This document shows positions 34,105 through 44,689 of a DNA stretch of 64,000 nt, one piece after another. Origin of the DNA: Methylocapsa aurea (lineage in GTDB: Bacteria; Pseudomonadota; Alphaproteobacteria; Rhizobiales; Beijerinckiaceae). The stretch spans positions 124,001-188,000 of the forward strand of contig NZ_JQKO01000001.1 in NCBI RefSeq assembly GCF_000746085.1, read 5' to 3'. The notes under the pieces were generated by a model, which saw only the letters and a program-made list of their open reading frames with translations, was not told where the DNA came from and did no database searches. The position numbers and the translations under genes were made by a program. Position 1 is the stretch's first letter. Every line of letters begins with the position of its first letter.

Positions 34105-36450
34105 TCAGAAGGAAACCTTGGCGGTCAATACGGCGGAGCGGCCCGGCCCGGGAATGGCCGCCCCGAAGCCAGTGATCGTCTCGAAGTTTTTCGTATCCGC
34201 GAGGTTGTAGATATTTGCCTGCACGGAGAATGTATCGTCGATCTTGTAATTGCCCAGCAAGTCGAAGCGCCAATAACCGGGAACGCGGCCGATATCGGTA
34301 GCCGTCGTAAAGCGCGAGCCAACATAGTAGATGCTGCCGCCAACGGTCAGAGCCGGAGTGATCGCATAGGTGTTGGTCACCGCGAATGTATTATGCGGGA
34401 CATTTGCAAGCTGATTGCCGGGATTGTTGAGGAAGAAGCCTGTTGGGTTCAAGGCGCTGGAGACCACGCGGCCATCCATATAGGTATAGCCGCCGAATAT
34501 GCTCCAGGCCTCGGTCACCTTGCCAGCAACCCCGATTTCGCCGCCCCTCACCCGCGTCGTGCCGACTTGAGCATAAAGGCCGGCCGCCGAATTGACGGTC
34601 TCAATCGCGTTTTGCTGGGTGATTTGGAACAGAGCGGCGGTTAGGCTGAGACGGCTCTCCAAGAGATCGACCTTGGCGCCTAATTCGAGGTTCTCGCTCG
34701 TCGTCGGCGCAAGATTTTGCTGGCCGCCCACGATGGTCAGGAACGAGCTGGAGGGATCGAACGATGTTCCATACATCAGATAGACGCTGCTGTTCTGGGT
34801 TGGATGAGCGACGCCGCCGGTGCGCCAGCTCAAGAATTTTACATTATTGCTGATGTTGAAGGGCGTCGTCGCGTTGAACTGGCCGACGACGGCCCTGGTC
34901 AATGTGTTCTCGGTCGCGCTGTATTGCCAGACCTTGAACAAGTCGTAACGCAGCCCGCCGAGCAGTTCGAAATATTCGTTTATCTTAACCTGATCGCTCG
35001 CATAAATGCCGATGGTGCGGCCAATGTCGTCTTGCAAGGTGCTGTTTGTCGGCAAAAGTCCTGGGTTGAACGGATAGGGATTGGGAGATCCGATGTCGAC
35101 CCGATCGCCTGGAGTCAGCGTGGTTCGGAAATGACTCCGGGTTTCCTGCGAGAGCTCGACGCCGGCGAGCAGCGTATGGCGCAAGAAGCCAGTGTCGAAA
35201 TGGCCGACGAGATCGGATTGGTTGGTCAGAAGCGAGTTGTTGGTGCTATTTTGGAAATTGTTCCGGTTCTGAACCCAAAGGCCGCCGACGGGATAGAAAT
35301 ACGGGACTGGATTGAGCAGATTGCCGCCGACAGGGGCGTTGTAGATGTTGGGAGCCGTCGTCCCGAGCTGGTTGCCGACCTGCACGCCGCGAACCCGCAC
35401 GAACCGGTCGATATAGGAATAGCGGGTCACATTGGAGATCTGCCAGTCCGGGTTGAACTTATGATCTATCCTGGCCGTGATGATATGCGCATCGACTTGT
35501 TCGGTATCCGAAAAGCCGTTGGTCAACCGGCCATAGAAAGTGTTCTTGGGAACCGGCGCCGGCTGTCCGTAGGATGTTCCGAAATATGAACCCGGCAGCA
35601 GCGGAATCCCGTAGTCGGGGATATTATTGTCCTGCTGAAAGATATAGCTCAGCGTGACCTTCGTCGCGTCGGTCATGTTCATGATGATCGAGGGCGCGAC
35701 GCCGATCCTCTTGGTGTTGACATGATCGCGGCCGGCGACATTGGTGTCATTGCCGAGGAGCACGATGCGGGCCGCTGAATCGCCGAAGGTCCGATTGAAA
35801 TCCGCCGTGACCCGTCCGCCAGGCGCGGTATAGCCCGACATTTCGACCCGGCTGAAATTCGTGAACATCGGCAATTTGCTGGTGAGGTTGATGACCCCGC
35901 CCGTCGAGCCGCGTCCGAACAAGAAGGACGATGGGCCCTTGAGCACTTCCACCTCTTCCACGCTGAAGGTGTCGCGCGTGTACCAGCCTGGATCGCGAAC
36001 GCCATCGCGATAGAAATCATTGCGCGCGGAATAGCCGCGGATGGCGATATTGTCGCCCTGCGTTCCGCCTTCGCCGCCAAAGAAGGTGACGCCCGGCACG
36101 TTGCGCAGCGCCTCGACGACGGTGGTGTCCTTTTGATCCTCGATCAGTTGCTGCGGAACAATGGTGATGCTTTGCGGCGTGTCGAGGATCGAGGTCGGGA
36201 TGCGGGATAGTTTGAGCTTGCGCGGATTATAGTCGCTGCCGCCTTCTCCTGGGCCGGCGACGTCGACCTGATCGAGGGCGACCGGCTCGGCCTCTTGCGC
36301 CAAGGCGGCGTCCGCGAACATGACCGATGCGAGGCCGATGGCGGCTCGCGCCATTGGCGCGCGGGTCTTGGCGCGAATGAATTTCCGGTCGGCGTTGTCA
36401 GCGATCTTGCGACCATAGCCAAATATCTCTGTAATGAACTCCCGCGTCAT
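34105..36450 (-). CDS. TonB-dependent siderophore receptor
   Basis: A 781-residue outer-membrane receptor. A long signal peptide ends FADAALAQ (about residue 52). The plug domain follows (LDTPQSITIVPQQLIEDQK, VVEALRNVPGVTFFGGEGG, IAIRGYSARNDFYRDGVRD, VEEVEVLKGPSSFLFGRGS, GGVINLTSKLP), then a 22-strand barrel ending in the terminal aromatic VSF. The pattern fits catecholate/hydroxamate siderophore receptors (FhuA/Fiu-like, TIGR01783). It is transcribed divergently from a PepSY protein across a region with an ICE-like iron box, so iron control through Irr is likely. The ligand is unknown. Confidence 0.92.
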   Translation of the reverse strand: MTREFITEIFGYGRKIADNADRKFIRAKTRAPMARAAIGLASVMFADAALAQEAEPVALDQVDVAGPGEGGSDYNPRKLKLSRIPTSILDTPQSITIVPQQLIEDQKDTTVVEALRNVPGVTFFGGEGGTQGDNIAIRGYSARNDFYRDGVRDPGWYTRDTFSVEEVEVLKGPSSFLFGRGSTGGVINLTSKLPMFTNFSRVEMSGYTAPGGRVTADFNRTFGDSAARIVLLGNDTNVAGRDHVNTKRIGVAPSIIMNMTDATKVTLSYIFQQDNNIPDYGIPLLPGSYFGTSYGQPAPVPKNTFYGRLTNGFSDTEQVDAHIITARIDHKFNPDWQISNVTRYSYIDRFVRVRGVQVGNQLGTTAPNIYNAPVGGNLLNPVPYFYPVGGLWVQNRNNFQNSTNNSLLTNQSDLVGHFDTGFLRHTLLAGVELSQETRSHFRTTLTPGDRVDIGSPNPYPFNPGLLPTNSTLQDDIGRTIGIYASDQVKINEYFELLGGLRYDLFKVWQYSATENTLTRAVVGQFNATTPFNISNNVKFLSWRTGGVAHPTQNSSVYLMYGTSFDPSSSFLTIVGGQQNLAPTTSENLELGAKVDLLESRLSLTAALFQITQQNAIETVNSAAGLYAQVGTTRVRGGEIGVAGKVTEAWSIFGGYTYMDGRVVSSALNPTGFFLNNPGNQLANVPHNTFAVTNTYAITPALTVGGSIYYVGSRFTTATDIGRVPGYWRFDLLGNYKIDDTFSVQANIYNLADTKNFETITGFGAAIPGPGRSAVLTAKVSF

Positions 36451-36608: not shown

Positions 36609-37823
36609 ATGTCTAGAAGGCGCTCATCTTCGCTTCTCTCTCGCCTTGTGGTCATGGAATTGATTTCTTCCGGCTGGGTCCGCCGCATGTTTCGCCAAGT
36701 CCATCTTTGGATCGGACTGGGTCTTAGCCTCCTCATCGCCGCCATCGCTTTGTCGGGGGCCTTGCTGGTTTTCGGCCCCGAGGTGGATAGGCTGATCGAT
36801 CCCTCGCGTTACGCAGTCACGGGGGCGGCGGCCGAGCAGGCGGCTGGCGTCTATCTCGGCAATGCGGCCAAGGCTGCTCCCGGAGCGCAGGCGGCCGTGC
36901 TGCGCTGGCCCGAGGCGGAGGGCGCGCCGGTCACGGTGCTCTTGCGCGGCGGGGCGGAAACGCCGGCGGCCCCAAGGGATCGTTTGCGCATTGCCTATCT
37001 CGATCCGCCGACCGGTCGGGTTTTGGGCCTCGTCGATGCCCGCGCCACTTTAGTCGGCATCGCGCATGCGCTGCACGCCAATCTGCTGGTCCCCCAATTC
37101 TCGGGCCGCCAGATTGTTGGGTGGGTGGGCGTCGGCCTCTTGATGATGACCTTGACCGGCCTCTGGCTCTGGTGGCCGCGCAACTCCGGATTTCTCCAGG
37201 CGTTGGCATGGCGGCGCGGCGCGACGGCAAGCGTTAACTTGCACAACACGCTGGGAGTCTGGATCGCGTTGCCCTTGGCGGCGATGGCCTTGACCGGCAT
37301 GTCTTTATGCTTTCCGGAGCAGGCGCGCGGGTTGATCGGCCTTTTCGCCGATCTTGCGCCGCAGGGGCAGCGCCCAGGGGCAGGCCAAGGCCCCGGCGCG
37401 GCTCTGATGCTTCGGCCGGCGCAAGATCCGCAGCGGGTCGTCGAGATTGCTTTGCAAAGCGGCCAAGGCCTGCGCCCGGCGGCGCTGTCGGCGCCGACTG
37501 ACAAGGCCAAGGTCTGGCGGGTTCAACTTTTGACCCAGGAAGGCGAACGCCGCAGCGTGCTGGTCGACGATCAGACGTTGGCGGCGACGCATCCGCCCAC
37601 AGCCGCGGGCGACGCCTTTGCCGCTTGGTTGCGCCGCGTTCACGAAGCGACCCATCACGGGCCGCTCTGGCAAGCGATCGGCTTTCTTAGCGGGGCATTG
37701 CCGGCGGTCCTGCTTGTGACCGGGGTCCTGATGTGGCTGCGGCGCCGGTCGCGGCGCGCCGGAAAGTCCGCCGTCAGCGATGAAAAAATCGCCGCGCCGC
37801 TGGGAGTCTGTCGTGATTTATGA
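36609..37823 (+). CDS. PepSY-associated membrane protein (iron-uptake linked)
   Basis: A 404-residue inner-membrane protein with four main helices (about residues 35-57, 175-192, 215-235 and 363-383) and PepSY-type periplasmic regions. The family signatures are FRQVHLWIGLGLSLLIAAIALSGALLVF, LVGIAHALHANLL, VNLHNTLGVWIALPLAAMALTG and the late VLLVTGVLMWLRRR. Such proteins lie beside TonB-dependent siderophore receptors and are thought to reduce or handle the imported ferric complex. It is divergent from the receptor and followed 21 bases later by the piuC-like gene. Confidence 0.88.
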   Translation: MSRRRSSSLLSRLVVMELISSGWVRRMFRQVHLWIGLGLSLLIAAIALSGALLVFGPEVDRLIDPSRYAVTGAAAEQAAGVYLGNAAKAAPGAQAAVLRWPEAEGAPVTVLLRGGAETPAAPRDRLRIAYLDPPTGRVLGLVDARATLVGIAHALHANLLVPQFSGRQIVGWVGVGLLMMTLTGLWLWWPRNSGFLQALAWRRGATASVNLHNTLGVWIALPLAAMALTGMSLCFPEQARGLIGLFADLAPQGQRPGAGQGPGAALMLRPAQDPQRVVEIALQSGQGLRPAALSAPTDKAKVWRVQLLTQEGERRSVLVDDQTLAATHPPTAAGDAFAAWLRRVHEATHHGPLWQAIGFLSGALPAVLLVTGVLMWLRRRSRRAGKSAVSDEKIAAPLGVCRDL

Positions 37824-37844: not shown

Positions 37845-38525
37845 ATGATCGTTCATATCCCCAATGTCCTCGACCAGGACCAGCTCGCGCTATGCCGCGA
37901 GGCGATGGAGCGCGCTAAGTGGGTCGATGGGCGGGTCACCGCCGGGCACCAATCGGCGCAGGTCAAGAACAACCTGCAATTGCCCGAAGGCGGCGCCGAG
38001 CACCGTGAACTCGGCGAGATCGTGATCCGCGCGCTGCAGCGCTGCCCATTGTTTATTTCGGCGGTTCTGCCGCACACGATTTTTCCGCCTTTGTTCAATT
38101 GCTACAAAGTCGGAATGGGATTTGGAGCGCATGTCGACAATGCGGTTCGGCAAACCGCCGATGGCGCGATCCGCATTCGCACAGATGTGTCGGCGACCCT
38201 GTTCATCAGCGGCCCCGACGATTTCGACGGCGGTGAATTGACCATCGAGGACACTTACGGCAGTCATGAAGTCAAGCTGCCGGCGGGCGATCTCGTCGTC
38301 TACCCATCCGACAGCCTGCACCATGTCACGCCGGTGACGCGGGGCGCGCGGCTGGCGTCCTTCTTCTGGATTCAGAGTCTGGTTCGGGATAAGACAAGGC
38401 GCGGACTTTTATTTGAGCTCGACGCCGCGATCATGCAATTGACGCGCGATGCGCCGGGGCATCCCGCGTTGGCGTCGCTGACTTCGACCTATCATAATCT
38501 GCTGAGACAATGGGTGGAGACATGA
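37845..38525 (+). CDS. piuC: PKHD-type Fe(II)/2-oxoglutarate hydroxylase (PiuC/YbiX family)
   Basis: A 226-residue dioxygenase. The iron triad is H96 and D98 (GAHVDNAV) with H159 in [15 protein letters not shown]; the arginine there should bind 2-oxoglutarate. [15 protein letters not shown] is also characteristic. PiuC-type enzymes accompany TonB-dependent receptors in iron-limited cells; the hydroxylated substrate is unknown. It probably forms an operon with the PepSY gene and falls under the same iron control. Confidence 0.93.
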
Positions 38526-38685: not shown

Positions 38686-39717
38686 ATGAGCTGGGCGGAC
38701 CTTGATCTGGCAGGCGGGCGGCGTCGAATGAACCGTCTTGTCGGAAAAACTCTTGCCGCTTTATGCGTGAGCGCGCTTCTCTGCGCCGCCCCGTCGCAGG
38801 CCCAGACGCCAGTTCAAACGAACGACGAGGCGCCCCAGGCTCAGCCTGCTCCAGCTTCGCCGTCCACGGCATCGCCCTTGGCCATCACGCCTGCTCCGGC
38901 TTTATCAGCGCCTGCCGCGGAGTCCGCGGCGCCAGCTGCGCCGACCGAAGCGAAGGCGGAAGAGCCCAAGCCCACGCCGCGGGCTGAGGCCGCTTCTCCT
39001 TCGACTTTGCCGCAGGATCTGACGCCAAAGGGAATGTTCCTCAACGCCGTCATGACCGTGAAGGTCGTCATGGTCGGGCTTGCTTTCGCATCGCTTGCGA
39101 CCTGGACAGTCTGGCTCGCCAAGACGATCGAACTTTGGAGCGCCAGGCGCACGGCGCGGCGCGGCCTCGAAATTTTAGAGCGCGCGACCAGCCTGCGCGC
39201 GGCGGAAAAGGAATTCGCGCAGGCGCGCTCTCCCGTCGCTCTTTTCGTGTCGGCGGCGGTCGATGAGACCGAACGCTCCGCCGGGCTTCCGCCCGAAGGC
39301 GTCAAGGAGCGCGCCGCCGCTTTGCTTTCGCGGATCGAGGCGCAAGCCGGGCGGACCATGACGCGAGGCACCGGCGTGCTGGCGACGATCGGCTCGACCG
39401 CGCCCTTCGTCGGCCTGTTCGGGACGGTCTGGGGCATCATGGACAGTTTTATCGGGATTTCGCAGAGCCATACGACCAATCTTGCGATCGTTGCGCCAGG
39501 CATCGCCGAAGCCTTGCTGGCCACCGCCATGGGGCTTATCGCGGCGATTCCAGCTGTCGTGATCTACAATGTCTTCGCCCGCTCGATCGCCGGCTATCGC
39601 GCGCTGCTCGGCGACGGCGCCGCTGAAGTTCTTCGCATGCTCTCCCGCGACGTCGACCGCGCGGCCGTCCTTGCCGACGGGCCGCATGTGGTCCCGATGC
39701 GCCAGTCAGCGGAGTGA
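38686..39717 (+). CDS. exbB: TonB-system proton channel protein ExbB
   Basis: A 343-residue ExbB of the long alphaproteobacterial type. It has an N-terminal signal peptide (ALCVSALLCAAPSQAQ), a Pro/Ala-rich periplasmic segment to about residue 110, then three transmembrane helices. The conserved channel helices contain GTGVLATIGSTAPFVGLFGTVWGIM and GIAEALLATAMGLIAAIPAVVIYN. The ATG at 38686 has AGGA upstream; an ATG at 38728 would give a more typical signal-peptide length. It is the first gene of exbB-exbD-tonB. Confidence 0.94.
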   Translation: MSWADLDLAGGRRRMNRLVGKTLAALCVSALLCAAPSQAQTPVQTNDEAPQAQPAPASPSTASPLAITPAPALSAPAAESAAPAAPTEAKAEEPKPTPRAEAASPSTLPQDLTPKGMFLNAVMTVKVVMVGLAFASLATWTVWLAKTIELWSARRTARRGLEILERATSLRAAEKEFAQARSPVALFVSAAVDETERSAGLPPEGVKERAAALLSRIEAQAGRTMTRGTGVLATIGSTAPFVGLFGTVWGIMDSFIGISQSHTTNLAIVAPGIAEALLATAMGLIAAIPAVVIYNVFARSIAGYRALLGDGAAEVLRMLSRDVDRAAVLADGPHVVPMRQSAE

Positions 39718-39723
39718 ACGCGC

Positions 39724-40212
39724 ATGGCTGTTCGGCTTTCTTCCGGGGAAGATGATCTCGAGATCAACCACGAGATCAACGTGACGCCCTTCATCGACGT
39801 CATTCTCGTGCTCCTGATCATCTTCATGGTCGTCGCGCCTCTCTCCACCGTCGACGTCAATGTCGATCTTCCCTCCTCCACGGCGCAACCGGCGCAGCGG
39901 CCCGATAAGCCTTTGTTCCTCACGGTGAAGTCGGATCTTTCCCTGCTGATCGGCGAGGATCTGGTCAATCGCGCGAACTTGGCCGGCGCCCTCGATGCGG
40001 CGACGCAGGCCGACAAGGAGCAGCGGGTCTTCGTTCGCGCCGACAAGGCCGTTTCCTATGGCGATGTGATGGAGACGATGAACCTCCTGCGCAGCGCCGG
40101 CTACTTGAAGATCGGGCTGGTCGGCTTGGACTCAGGGTCGGCCGGCGAGGCCTCTCCCTCGGGACAGACCAAACCGTCCGAGGCGAAGCCGGCGTCGGAG
40201 CCCCGGCCATGA
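39724..40212 (+). CDS. exbD: TonB-system proton channel protein ExbD
   Basis: A 162-residue membrane protein. The single helix INVTPFIDVILVLLIIFMVV contains the essential proton-carrying Asp (NVTPFIDV), followed by a periplasmic domain (TVDVNVDLPSS, VRADKAVSYGDVMETMNLLRSAGYLKIGLV). The tail is Pro/Ser/Lys-rich and longer than usual. It lies six bases after exbB and overlaps tonB by four bases, so the three are one operon. Confidence 0.95.
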   Translation: MAVRLSSGEDDLEINHEINVTPFIDVILVLLIIFMVVAPLSTVDVNVDLPSSTAQPAQRPDKPLFLTVKSDLSLLIGEDLVNRANLAGALDAATQADKEQRVFVRADKAVSYGDVMETMNLLRSAGYLKIGLVGLDSGSAGEASPSGQTKPSEAKPASEPRP

Positions 40213-40976
40213 CGATGGTTTCTGGAAGCGCATTTCCATCCACCGAGGAGCCGCCGCTTTGGCGATGGATCATAGCGGCGGCCTTGGTCGTCCTCGTTCA
40301 TGCGGGCTTCGTCTATTGGCTCTTGTATCGGACCAATCCGCCCCCCGCCGGCGAGCCTCCCGCCGCGGTAATGATTGAACTATCGCCAGTGGCGATCTCG
40401 CCGGAAAGCGCGACCGAACTTCTCCCAGGTCCGCAAATGACCCAGGTGGAGCCTGAAGCTGAGGAGCCGCCGCTGACGATGGCGATCCCAGAGCTTCCTC
40501 CGGTTCCGAAGGCGGCCGCGGTTCTTGTAACGGCTCCCAAACCCAAGCCGAAGCCGCTGAAAAAAGTCGAAAAGAAGCTGGAAAAGGAAGAACTCAAGCC
40601 GCCGGCGCCGCGCACGAGCGCGCCCCTCCATACGCAGGCGGCGCGGGGGCAGTCCTCGGCGGCGCCCAGGCAAGGCGCGTCCGGGGCTCCATCGATGTCT
40701 TCCGCCTCATGGCACAGTCTGGTCGGGGCGCATTTCGCGCGGTATCCGCGTTATCCGGCATCGGCGCGCACGGACACGGGAACGCCGTCGATTTCCTTCA
40801 CGCTGGACCGAGGCGGCAGGCTCATCTCGGCCCGCCTCGCCAGGAGTTCGGGGTCCTCGGCGCTGGATCAGGAGGCGGTCGCCGCGGCACACCGCGCGAG
40901 CCCGTTTCCGGCTCCGCCGGCTGAAATGGGCGGCGGCTCCTACAGTTTCACGGTCCCGGTCCGCTTTCACCATTGA
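40209..40976 (+). CDS. tonB: Energy transducer TonB (second copy, with exbBD)
   Basis: A 255-residue TonB. The N-terminal helix WIIAAALVVLVHAGFVYWLL includes the functionally important His. A Pro-rich spacer with KPKPKPLKKVEKKLEKEE follows. The C-terminal TonB domain has YPRYPASARTDTGTPSISFTL, RLISARLARSSGSSALDQEAVAAAHRASPFPAPP and FTVPVRFH. It is translationally coupled to exbD. It probably energises the siderophore receptor and perhaps other outer-membrane importers. Confidence 0.93.
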   Translation: MTMVSGSAFPSTEEPPLWRWIIAAALVVLVHAGFVYWLLYRTNPPPAGEPPAAVMIELSPVAISPESATELLPGPQMTQVEPEAEEPPLTMAIPELPPVPKAAAVLVTAPKPKPKPLKKVEKKLEKEELKPPAPRTSAPLHTQAARGQSSAAPRQGASGAPSMSSASWHSLVGAHFARYPRYPASARTDTGTPSISFTLDRGGRLISARLARSSGSSALDQEAVAAAHRASPFPAPPAEMGGGSYSFTVPVRFHH

Positions 40977-41017: not shown

Positions 41018-41153
41018 TAGAGCGCTTGGTGATTCCGCAAGCGCTTCCCGATCAGATGGAGTCATCTGATCGAAAAATAATCGTTCAGATTCAATGAGTT
41101 GTAGCATGTTCTCATGAGATGTCGGATATATCCGATGTCTCATAAGAACATGC
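41018..41153. repeat. Composite family C repeat and 50-base imperfect palindrome
   Basis: A family C element (AGCGCTTCCCGATCAGATGG ... ATTCAATGAGTTG) runs directly into a 50-base imperfect palindrome at 41104-41153. The palindrome starts GCATGTTCTCATGAGA and ends TCTCATAAGAACATGC, with CGGATATATCCG at its centre; three mismatched pairs were counted. It lies between tonB and the lanmodulin-like gene and could be a terminator or an element insertion. Confidence 0.75.
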
Positions 41154-41253
41154 GCTCGCGAAAAATCCTATTTTTTGGAAACAGATCACGTTGCCGCGCA
41201 GTTGATTGGTTGGAGCGGCCGGGCGCGCTCGGCGCCAACAATGGAGCAGAATA

Positions 41254-41670
41254 ATGATTGATCGCCGCCTTTTGATCGCCAAGATTGGCCTTTGCGGATT
41301 TTTGGCCGCAAATTTCATTGGGTTTCCGGACAGGGCGGCCTTGGCGGCGTCTTCGATTGTCGCAGCCGTCGACAAGGATAACGACGGCACTCTCGATCTT
41401 GCCGAAGTGAAAGAGGCCGCCGGCGCTTTCTTCGAGAAGCTCAACAAGGATCCCGACGATACGCTTGACGCCAAAGAGGTAGGCGCCCGGCTTGGCAAGA
41501 GCGCATTCAAGGCCGGCGATCCCGATGATGATGGCACGCTGACGAAAGACGAGTATTTCGCCATTGTCGAAAAGCTTTTCAAAGCGGCCGACGCCAATAA
41601 GGACGGCGTGCTGACGGGGAAGGAGCTTCAGTCGAAGGCCGGACGCGCGCTGACGCGTTTGATCCACTAA
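41254..41670 (+). CDS. Lanmodulin-like EF-hand protein, periplasmic
   Basis: A 138-residue protein with a signal peptide (cleavage near ALAA-SS, residue 32) and four EF-hand loops: DKDNDGTLDLAE (40-51), NKDPDDTLDAKE (64-75), DPDDDGTLTKDE (89-100) and DANKDGVLTGKE (113-124). The loops are 12, 13 and 12 residues apart, the compact spacing of lanmodulin rather than the about 24 of calmodulin. The inter-loop helix FEKL, the segment YFAIVEKLFKAA and the C-terminus RALTRLIH also resemble lanmodulin. The hallmark Pro at loop position 2 is kept only in loop 3. GGAG precedes the ATG. Lanthanide binding is inferred; calcium binding is the alternative. Confidence 0.8.
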   Translation: MIDRRLLIAKIGLCGFLAANFIGFPDRAALAASSIVAAVDKDNDGTLDLAEVKEAAGAFFEKLNKDPDDTLDAKEVGARLGKSAFKAGDPDDDGTLTKDEYFAIVEKLFKAADANKDGVLTGKELQSKAGRALTRLIH

Positions 41671-41765: not shown

Positions 41766-43637
41766 ATGACCGAAGCGCTCGCGTTTGCTGCCTTTTCGTC
41801 CATCGGCGCGGGCCTGTTTTCGCTCGGCGGCGGCGCTGTTCTGTTGAGCGTCCTGCTTCTCGCCGCGATCCTTGGGCTTCTCGTCGACCGTGTTCGGCGC
41901 CGGCGGCGCGAGGCCCTACTTTGCGACGAGCGGGAAAGCCTGCGCGATGAAGTCTGGGAATTGAAGGCGGCGGCCGCGGCGGCGGAGCGCGCCGAGGCCG
42001 CGAGCGAGGCTAAATCGCGTTTTCTCGCCAGTCTCAGCCATGAAATCCGCACCCCGCTCAATGGCATTTTGGGGATGGCCGGGCTCTTGCTCGATACGCG
42101 CGTCGACGCGGAGCAAAGAAGCTATATCGAGGCGATTAGCGGGTCGGGCGTCGCGCTGGCCTCGCTGATCGATGAAATGCTCGATTTTTCGAAGATCGAA
42201 GCGGGCAAAATCGAGATCGCCGAGGAACCATTCGATCTTGTGACGCTGGTTGAAAGTTGTGTCGAGCTCTTGGCTCCGCGAGCGCAGGGAAAAGGGCTCG
42301 AAATCGCGAGCTCGATCGCCGCCGATGTGCCGGCGCGCCTCATTGGCGATGCCGCCCGGCTGCGCCAGGTCCTGCTTAATCTCGCCGGAAATGCGGTCAA
42401 ATTCACCGATCGCGGCGGCGTCGGCCTTCGCGTCGCCAGGCAGGGCGAACACGCGCTTTGCATTGATGTGATTGATACCGGGCCCGGCGTTCCGGTTCAT
42501 CGCCGCGACGCCATTTTCGAGGAGTTCGAACAAGGCGACGGCTCGGCGACGAATCGCTACGGCGGCGCCGGGCTTGGGCTCGCTATTTCAAAGCGGCTCG
42601 TCGAACGGATGGGCGGCGCGCTGCGACTGGCGGCGGCGGGCCAGGAGGGATCGAGATTTTCAATCGTCCTTCCCCTTCGCCCGTGCGGAAGCGCGCAGAA
42701 GGCGCGGGTCGAGGCGCCCGATCTGAGCGGCCAGGGCGCGCTGATCGTGGCGGCCGCGCCCTTTGCAGCGCCCTTTTTGGCGGAGCGGCTCGCGGAGGCG
42801 GGCGCAAGCGTCCGCCATGCGGCAACCGAGGCCGCCGCCTTGGCCCTTCTCGCCGCCGTCCCATCTGGCACTTCATATGACATTTTCATTGTCGACTGCG
42901 CCCTCGGCGCGGCTGCGACGCGCCGGCTTGGCGACGCTGCCAGAACCGCCGGCATCACCCGCCGCTTGCTGCTGTTCTCACCTTTCGAGCGGCGCGCCTT
43001 CGGCGAGAGTTTTGTCGACGGCTTCGACGGCTGGTTGGTCAAACCGGTCCGAGCGCGTTCGCTCTTCGCTCGCCTTGGCGCCGCCGGGGAGGCTTGCGCG
43101 AAGGCGCCGCCGCCCCCGAGGGCGCCAGTGCGGGCCAACTCCGGCGATGAAATCCTCCTTGCGGAGGATAATGACATCAATGCTTTGCTTGCGACGCGCC
43201 ATCTTGAAAAACTTGGCGCGCGGGTGACGCGGGCATGTGATGGCCTCGCCGCCGTGGCGCTGGTGGAGCAGGCGCTTAGCGGGGCGCGCTCGGCATTTGA
43301 CGCCATAATCCTCGACATTCGGATGCCCGGCATCGATGGGCTCGAGGCGGCGCGGCGGATCCGGCGGGCGGAGCGCGCGGCCGGCAGCGCTCCCGTTCGT
43401 TTAATCGCCCTGACCGCCAATGCTTTCGACGACGATCGCTTGGCGGCCGAAGAGGCTGAAATCGACGAATTTCTGACAAAGCCGGTCGATTATCGCCGTC
43501 TTAACGGCATTTTGGAGGTTGCGTCGGCAGCCTCGCGGCAAGCCGCGTTCGGCCGGCGAATCGACAGGGCGGCCGTGTCCGCGAGCCCGATTCTTTGCGC
43601 TATGGGTCCGGCGGGGTCGAATGGGCGCGCGTTGTGA
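41766..43637 (+). CDS. Hybrid sensor histidine kinase with degenerate and intact receivers
   Basis: A 623-residue protein. One N-terminal membrane segment (about 21-41) is followed by coiled coil and HisKA ([17 protein letters not shown], His92). Next come HATPase ([33 protein letters not shown]), a first receiver-like domain (about 325-440) and a C-terminal receiver with acidic pocket LAEDN and Asp517 in IILDIRMPG. The first receiver keeps Asp377 and a lysine (WLVKPV) but lacks the acidic metal pair. There is almost no periplasmic domain, so the signal is probably cytoplasmic or membrane-borne. No partner regulator is adjacent. Confidence 0.92.
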
Positions 43638-43732: not shown

Positions 43733-44689
43733 ATGCCCACCAAGCTCGAACAGTTGAAAGCCATGACAACGGTTGTCGCCGACACCGGCGATATGGAGGC
43801 GATCCGCGCTTTCATGCCTGTCGACGCGACGACCAACCCGACGTTGATCCTGAAAGCGGCGCAGATGCCTCGTTACGCCCAACTGCTGGAGGAGGCGATT
43901 CTATGGGGCTTGAGCCATAATCATCTGACGAGCGAGATTACCGAACGGCTAACCCTGAACTTTGGATTGGAGCTGACAAAAATCGTGCCTGGCCGGGTGT
44001 CGACGGAAGTCGATGCGGATCTCTCCTTCGACATCGAGGGGACGGTCGCCAAGGCGCGCTCGATCATCGCGGAATATGAGAAGCGCGGGGTTGGCCGCGA
44101 GCGCATCCTCATCAAGATCGCAGCCACATGGGAAGGCATTCGCGCCGCCGAAATTCTGCAAAGCGAAGCAATAGACTGCAATATGACTTTGATCTTCTCG
44201 CTCACCCAGGCAGTCGCTTGCGCCGATGCCGGAGCCTATCTCATTTCTCCTTTCGTCGGGCGCATTCTCGATTGGCACATGAAAGCCGAAGGGAAGACCT
44301 ATGCAGCCGAAACGGATCCGGGCGTCGTGTCCGTCCGCCAGATCTATAGCTATTTCAAAGCCCATGATGTGAAGACAGTGATTATGGGCGCCTCGTTCCG
44401 CAACAAGGAGGAGATCGAGGCTCTGGCCGGCTGCGACCGGTTGACGATTTCGCCGCAATTGCTCGAGGAACTGGCCAAGGATGAAGGCGACTTGCCGCGC
44501 CGGCTCGATCCAAAGACGGCGGCGTCTCACCCTCCCGCAAAACTCTCGCTCGACGAGAAGACTTTTCGCTTTCTCTTGAACGAAGACGCCATGGCGACTG
44601 AAAAGCTGGCCGAGGGCATCCGGTTCTTCGCTCGCGACCTTCGCGCGTTGCGCGAGCTCGTTTCCAAGAGACTTTTGGCTGCCGCCTAA
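43733..44689 (+). CDS. tal: Transaldolase (TalB type)
   Basis: A 318-residue pentose-phosphate enzyme exchanging dihydroxyacetone units between sugar phosphates. DATTNPTLI (31-39) and the Schiff-base Lys128 in [10 protein letters not shown] are present. [20 protein letters not shown] and [11 protein letters not shown] follow. Length matches the classical TalB subfamily. In methylotrophs this enzyme can also serve formaldehyde assimilation, but nothing here shows that. A short AT-rich hairpin (TAAACACA / TGTGTTTA) overlaps the stop codon. Confidence 0.96.

Follow-up and report, generated by a model that had tools for sequence, protein, structure and literature searches.

The gene localized at 41254..41670 (+ strand) of the stretch of Methylocapsa aurea DNA considered here (64,000 nucleotides, called the window) encodes a protein of 138 aa. 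Its assignment as a lanmodulin (LanM) is supported jointly by profile, sequence, predicted fold and genome context, in agreement with the earlier note, which had read it as a divergent lanmodulin. In itself, the protein appears from its loops as one more LanM, matching neither the Mex motif nor the Hans motif. No paper was recognized, by title or passage, as describing the M. aurea LanM in a literature search that covered few subscription journals.

The open reading frame runs from ATG to TAA exactly at these positions (138 codons). The hydrophobic N-terminus (MIDRRLLIAKIGLCGFLAANFIGFPDRAALA, aa 1-31, 41254..41346, + strand) is a putative export signal ending in ALA-A, the cleavage site being placed by eye; the first 23 residues have a pLDDT <50 in the AlphaFold2 model. 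Four EF-hand loops follow on the + strand, recognized from the sequence and by a pattern scan: EF1 (DKDNDGTLDLAE, aa 40-51, 41371..41406), EF2 (NKDPDDTLDAKE, aa 64-75, 41443..41478), EF3 (DPDDDGTLTKDE, aa 89-100, 41518..41553), which is the sole loop with Pro at position 2 (Pro2), and EF4 (DANKDGVLTGKE, aa 113-124, 41590..41625), which is Hans-LanM-like by PDB comparison. The spacing between the loops is 12/13/12 residues, position 9 is Asp in EF1 and EF2 and Thr in EF3 and EF4, and the C-terminus is RALTRLIH. All these features, together with the absence of Pro2 from EF1, EF2 and EF4, had been claimed before and are found again, the signal peptide being judged by eye. The second loop (NKDPDD) had also been described as shifted; this is not the case, since EF2 keeps the register (N1, D3, D5, D9, E12), its peculiarities being N at position 1, P at position 4 and D for G at position 6. 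In each of the four loops, D, N or E is found at positions 1, 3, 5 and 12; in EF4, N occupies position 3 and V occupies position 7. The four-loop pattern was reproduced in 0/200,000 shuffles of the mature protein and is found in only one of the 279 open frames of at least 100 aa of the window, i.e., lanM itself.

The NCBIfam LanM equivalog NF053806 matches the protein with 140.8 bits (cut-off 135, E 2.6e-41), i.e., the profile check favours the lanmodulin family by a margin of 5.8 bits only. The best phmmer matches in PDB are Mex-LanM (6mi5, E 2.9e-24; 8fns, E 5.9e-24), Hans-LanM (8dq2, E 4.8e-19) and an Ancylobacter lanthanum-bound protein (9pi2, E 6.9e-19), the next match being a calcium protein (E 1e-4). 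A better match to CREC or calmodulin-like families had been named as the result that would speak against a lanmodulin; LanMs rank first, 15 to 20 orders of magnitude ahead. The AlphaFold2 model, obtained from a 31-sequence alignment, has a mean pLDDT of 82.6 (signal included), with 10-residue blocks >90 from residue 41 onward. The best fit of this model, a prediction that bears on the fold and not on affinity, is to the Nd-bound structure of Mex-LanM (8fns), with a deviation of 0.9 A over 103 columns. Foldseek gives four matches only in PDB at E<=0.001, all of them LanM structures; among the 50 matches listed, the target-normalised TM is 0.69-0.94 for the four LanMs and <=0.41 for the others. 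The three-helix bundle with peripheral metal sites is found in the predicted model. The LanM hallmarks published in PMC10232371, as far as that source was consulted, are four EF hands in a protein <200 aa, a spacing of 12-13 and at least one Pro2; the M. aurea protein has all three, Pro2 through EF3 only.

Mex-LanM (Methylorubrum extorquens AM1; 6mi5, 8fns) is like the M. aurea LanM in its four EF hands and its 12/13/12 spacing, and the helices and C-terminus of the two proteins are related. Every loop of Mex-LanM carries both Pro2 and Asp9 (the Mex motif), whereas the M. aurea LanM, with Pro2 in EF3 only and Thr9 in EF3 and EF4, departs from it. Hans-LanM (Hansschlegelia quercus; 8dq2, 8fnr) has the short spacing and the fold in common with the M. 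aurea LanM, and the Ancylobacter lacus protein (9pi2) the short spacing. An Asn1, in EF2 only of the M. aurea LanM, is a further feature in common with these proteins, and EF4 is of the DANKDGxLT kind, as in Hans-LanM (DANKDGKLT). On the contrary, the Hans motif (Asn1 and Glu9 in EF1-EF3) is absent: position 9 is Asp or Thr, never Glu, and the protein groups with the set of its own genus. Hans-LanM itself is a long branch of unsure position in the tree.

LanMs of the Methylocapsa/Methylocella genus to which M. aurea LanM belongs (M. acidiphila B2, L055; M. tundrae, L054; and others) are called here B type. They are 55-67% identical to the M. aurea LanM (ten genus members aligned) and have the same loop grammar. 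The nearest named LanM loci are those of Methylocella tundrae, Methylocapsa acidiphila B2 and Beijerinckiaceae MAGs. In the tree, the M. aurea LanM groups with ten other genus sequences (SH-aLRT 86), the M. acidiphila protein being its sister (83). L162, whose loops are of B type, could not be placed, and support is low for many of the forks in this tree of 103 columns. Four genus genomes (G076, G040, G103 and G159) have a second LanM, called type A (L167-L170), with Pro2 in every loop and a 12/11/12 spacing, which shares a branch with Mex-LanM (SH-aLRT 86). A further weak and partial LanM match is found in G244. M. aurea itself has a single LanM, which is of B type. As a whole, the LanM model matches 157 of the 397 family genomes at E<=0.001, of which 121 are over the cut-off, and 13 of the 15 genus genomes have a LanM. 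Plasmids hardly contribute: of the 72,556 plasmid records searched, just 2 (one Methylobacterium, one Methylorubrum) give a match at E<=1e-5. The LanM of L077, a record titled Frankia sp. RB7, groups with Bradyrhizobium; this assembly is perhaps contaminated or mislabelled.

Loop variation was surveyed on 151 LanM rows, from which L080, L132 and L199 (truncated or misread loops) were removed and duplicates collapsed, leaving 136 cores; the sample is skewed, 80 loci having been picked by B-type EF1/EF2 patterns and 53 cores having a Bradyrhizobium-like EF3. Position 9 of EF3 is T in 91 cores, S in 22 and D in 23, i.e., T/S in 113/136, and in 60/83 once the 53 Bradyrhizobium-like cores are removed. 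Pro2 is present in EF3 of 123 cores, EF4 of 89, EF2 of 56 and EF1 of 18, and in no loop of 8 cores. The 12/13/12 spacing is found in 130/136. N1 and D6 occur together in EF2 of seven other cores, six of them from the genus of M. aurea, where NKDxDD second loops are recurrent. Rarer combinations are a Thr or Ser at position 9 of EF3 as well as EF4 (5/136, M. aurea included) and Pro4 in EF2 plus Thr9 in EF3 and EF4 (M. aurea and G211 only among the 136 cores).

The loop differences had been presented as unusual and as a possible source of unusual selectivity or affinity. T/S9 in EF3, the lack of Pro2 in EF1/EF2 and NKDxDD are normal in the genus or in most LanMs examined, and Thr9 in EF4 is found also in Hans-LanM. 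The LanM of Methylobacterium aquaticum strain 22A likewise has no Pro2 in loops 1 and 2; it is induced by La, and a conformational change upon La3+ binding is reported for it (PMC9260416, consulted in part). This protein belongs to another genus and another gene neighbourhood, and its likeness to the M. aurea LanM rests on the published loop description. Since they recur in the genus, in the LanMs surveyed, in the EF4 of Hans-LanM and in the strain 22A LanM, the differences are family variation and not novelty; the protein is a further member of a known family, and the suggested special selectivity is unsupported.

The same loops bear on the alternative that survives best, namely that the protein descends from LanMs but has lost much of the lanthanide selectivity, now buffering cations in general, or calcium, in the periplasm. 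This is improbable. It would fit with the absence of Pro2 from EF1, EF2 and EF4, with N3 and V7 in EF4 and D for G at position 6 of EF2, and with the motif survey of PMC12482762, which, in the part consulted, leaves sequences without Mex or Hans motif unassigned. However, the D, N or E residues at positions 1, 3, 5 and 12 are retained in all four loops, close relatives have similar loops and keep XoxF (13/13 genus LanM genomes), and the strain 22A protein responds to La without Pro2 in EF1/EF2 (PMC9260416).

A periplasmic lanmodulin is very probably the right reading of the gene product, and the steps of its function can be proposed from sequence and model as follows. The signal would send LanM to the periplasm. 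Lanthanide(III) may enter via a TonB-dependent receptor, perhaps a LutH-like one encoded elsewhere in the genome. Loops 1-3 would bind lanthanide(III) ions, EF4 being probably a weak site, as it is according to the published accounts of both characterised LanMs (Mex and Hans) in the parts consulted. Binding would fold the three-helix bundle, and the loaded LanM would then buffer lanthanide and hand it on to XoxF or into the XoxF/MxaF switch.

The genome context is consistent with these steps, the protein being expected to serve methanol oxidation; a lanthanide-dependent methanol dehydrogenase in the same genome supports the LanM assignment without defining it. The M. aurea assembly (3.97 Mb, 99.99% complete) contains two PQQ alcohol dehydrogenases, with WDYD and WDYA motifs. 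WDYD, with the lanthanide Asp, is taken here to mean XoxF, and WDYA to mean the calcium-type MxaF. A search for xoxF and lut genes elsewhere in the genome had been suggested; xoxF was found (WDYD), with a XoxJ-type gene adjoining it. As to lut genes, the genome has a LutH-like receptor gene, an intact ORF of 813 aa whose product shares 39% identity with the receptor encoded next to lanM in a Mex-type locus, and no known lut gene adjoins lanM. In this it differs from the gene of Mex-LanM, which lies in a lut cluster, and the receptor of the Mex-type locus was itself named LutH from its position beside lanM (both from the part consulted of PMC9260416). The best NCBIfam match of the LutH-like receptor is PqqU, with 82.8 bits for a cut-off of 1200, NCBIfam having no LutH model. 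A further gene belongs to PF02461 (E 1e-109), the ammonia/particulate methane monooxygenase A family; because of this gene and of the nearest named LanM loci, the genome most likely is that of a Beijerinckiaceae methane oxidiser.

LanM and XoxF tend to occur together. A XoxF match (E<=1e-200, a threshold which excludes MxaF within the genus, the best MxaF match being 5e-191) is found in 105 of the 121 genomes with a LanM over the cut-off vs. 34 of 276 others (odds ratio 47, Fisher p 8e-48, genomes being counted without correction for common descent). A few of these matches may be other PQQ dehydrogenases, since G206 is the only genome outside the genus with a checked motif. Within the genus, XoxF is found in 13/13 LanM genomes, the best match of each carrying WDYD; G126, which is without LanM, also has XoxF.

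Several points were counted against a periplasmic lanmodulin: (i) the 5.8-bit margin; (ii) Pro2 in one loop; (iii) the 16 of 121 LanM genomes in which a XoxF match is missing; (iv) the iron-type TonB cassette beside lanM; (v) the lack of a lut cluster; (vi) the PqqU match of the LutH-like receptor, far below the cut-off; (vii) the probability that the La-induced LanM of Methylocella silvestris is of the other type. This last protein (Msil_0271) is 39-fold up with La in the part consulted of PMC9291206, a rise that was counted in favour of a lanmodulin, and probably is of type A, not of the B type of M. aurea. In G076, the type A lanM is localized at 314 kb.

The neighbourhood of lanM was assigned from profile matches. 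On the 5' side are found a TonB-dependent siderophore-type receptor (34105..36450, - strand) and, all on the + strand, a PepSY_TM protein (36609-37823), a PKHD-type Fe2+-dependent dioxygenase of the YbiX/PiuC kind (37845-38525, for which the name PiuC is assumed here), exbB (38686-39717), exbD (39724-40212) and tonB (40209-40976). On the 3' side, and also on the + strand, lanM is followed by a hybrid histidine kinase (HisKA, HATPase and receiver; 41766..43637) and then by the transaldolase gene tal (43733..44689; TIGR00874 457.2 bits vs. a cut-off of 396.2).

Such a setting could suggest that the protein works with iron(III) in the periplasm, as an accessory of the cassette formed by TonB-ExbB-ExbD, the siderophore receptor, PepSY and the dioxygenase, a reading that is very improbable. 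exbB-exbD precede the B-type lanM in 9/13 genus loci, being not upstream in G198 and G211 and having no match within about 2.8 kb upstream in G172 and G244; tal lies downstream in 12/13. In G073 (L182), a LanM of the other type stands beside an orthologous set of receptor, PepSY and dioxygenase genes; exbB-exbD are absent from the stretch examined. On the contrary, G126 keeps the order receptor-PepSY-dioxygenase-ExbB-ExbD-TonB-Tal without LanM, and in G211 exbBD-tonB-tal are present with lanM elsewhere, beside mxaFJG. Because of G126 and G211, the gene order is independent of LanM, and lanM after exbB-exbD-tonB looks like shared gene order. A functional coupling of lanM to exbB-exbD-tonB was considered and is weakened by the same two genomes. 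According to the part consulted of PMC10848612, lanM goes up and exbB and exbD go down with Nd in Beijerinckiaceae bacterium RH AL1.

The lanM of G211 (L157:10591-16004), the closest to M. aurea in loop make-up, is localized 1.4 kb upstream of mxaF (WDFA), with short cytochrome-like frames in between; mxaF is followed by mxaJ and mxaG (MoxJ and MoxG equivalogs over the cut-off) and a MoxR-type ATPase. This position was counted in favour of a lanmodulin. The type A lanM of G159 is about 3 kb from a MxaF-type gene, and in G206 about 6 kb separate xoxF from the gene of a LanM just below the cut-off (133.8 bits). The three loci are examples among many.

The weakest alternative, an ordinary calmodulin-type calcium EF-hand protein unrelated to lanthanides, is hardly credible: Pfam EF-hand models match the protein and calmodulin-like chains appear in PDB at weak E-values, but its loops are 12-13 residues apart and not about 25 as in calmodulin-type proteins, the E-values of the LanM matches are lower than that of the next protein by 15 to 20 orders of magnitude, and no other chain exceeds TM 0.41 among the 50 Foldseek matches listed (LanMs: 0.69-0.94).

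Concerning the histidine kinase 3' of lanM, it is complete in M. aurea, reduced to a 125-aa remnant in G103 and absent from the other 11 B-type genus loci. Among 60 further loci, six have a histidine kinase gene next after lanM and in the same orientation (L172, L186, L198 and L200-L202), i.e., the locus of G009, together with tal, and five of the six loci from genus g22, a Methylovirgula-like group. Gene order thus suggests a lanM-histidine kinase pair occurring in three genera, yet often lost. The hybrid histidine kinase is a candidate regulator of the lanthanide switch.

A more far-reaching proposal is that these LanMs form a third functional class, neither Mex nor Hans, with Pro2 kept in EF3 and Ser/Thr9 in EF3. 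Such a class would have its own rare-earth selectivity through an altered second shell at EF2 and EF3, which form the tight pair, and the tie with the histidine kinase could make LanM the sensing arm of the lanthanide switch. This proposal is speculative and rather unlikely. If it were true, Mex-LanM would be the exception, because Ser/Thr9 in EF3 is commoner (113/136 cores). The LanMs surveyed offer a natural set of position-9 variants for the study of rare-earth selectivity.

In a 2025 survey of methane oxidisers (PMC12482762, consulted in part), 17 genome sequences and one metatranscript are the only ones reported to have the Mex motif, and none is reported with the Hans motif, the remaining sequences being left as possible LanM or calmodulin variants. 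Because methanotroph LanMs without known motifs are left unassigned there, the M. aurea LanM is useful. Its conservation in the genus, its predicted LanM fold and the XoxF of 13/13 genus genomes argue that such motif-negative sequences include real LanMs.

The NCBI transaldolase model NF008965 weakly matches residues 64-133 of the M. aurea LanM (the EF-hand part). Some transaldolases therefore seem to carry an EF-hand tail. The transaldolase gene is localized two genes 3' of lanM.

The gap between tonB and lanM contains a palindromic repeat (41080..41156, no strand assigned) that a genome-wide sequence search found to be dispersed and not lanM-specific. A 25-nt inverted repeat (41104-41153) is part of this element. 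The 101-base repeat query gives 80 genome matches, many of which are a single site counted on its two strands (76 candidates at first look, of which 40 were scored). As the inverted repeat is dispersed in the genome, it was rejected as a lanM-specific lanthanide operator. No motif common to all 13 aligned upstream regions of genus lanM was found. A promoter-like stretch (TTTACTTTT...AAAGATA-like), not clear in M. aurea, is seen upstream of lanM in 5 of 13 relatives (L162, L163, L056, L057 and L059).

Export by the Tat route, in which LanM would fold, and perhaps be loaded with metal, in the cytoplasm, was also considered. It is not supported by Tat profiles, which are short: no Tat model is listed at E<=10 for any of the 12 aligned B-type members, and the LanM frame is absent from the 16 genome matches of the short profile PF10518 at E<=10. 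By eye, an RR pair is found near the start of 7/13 genus B-type LanMs, and a basic residue precedes the likely cleavage site in 5/7 of the RR proteins vs. 0/6 of those without RR.
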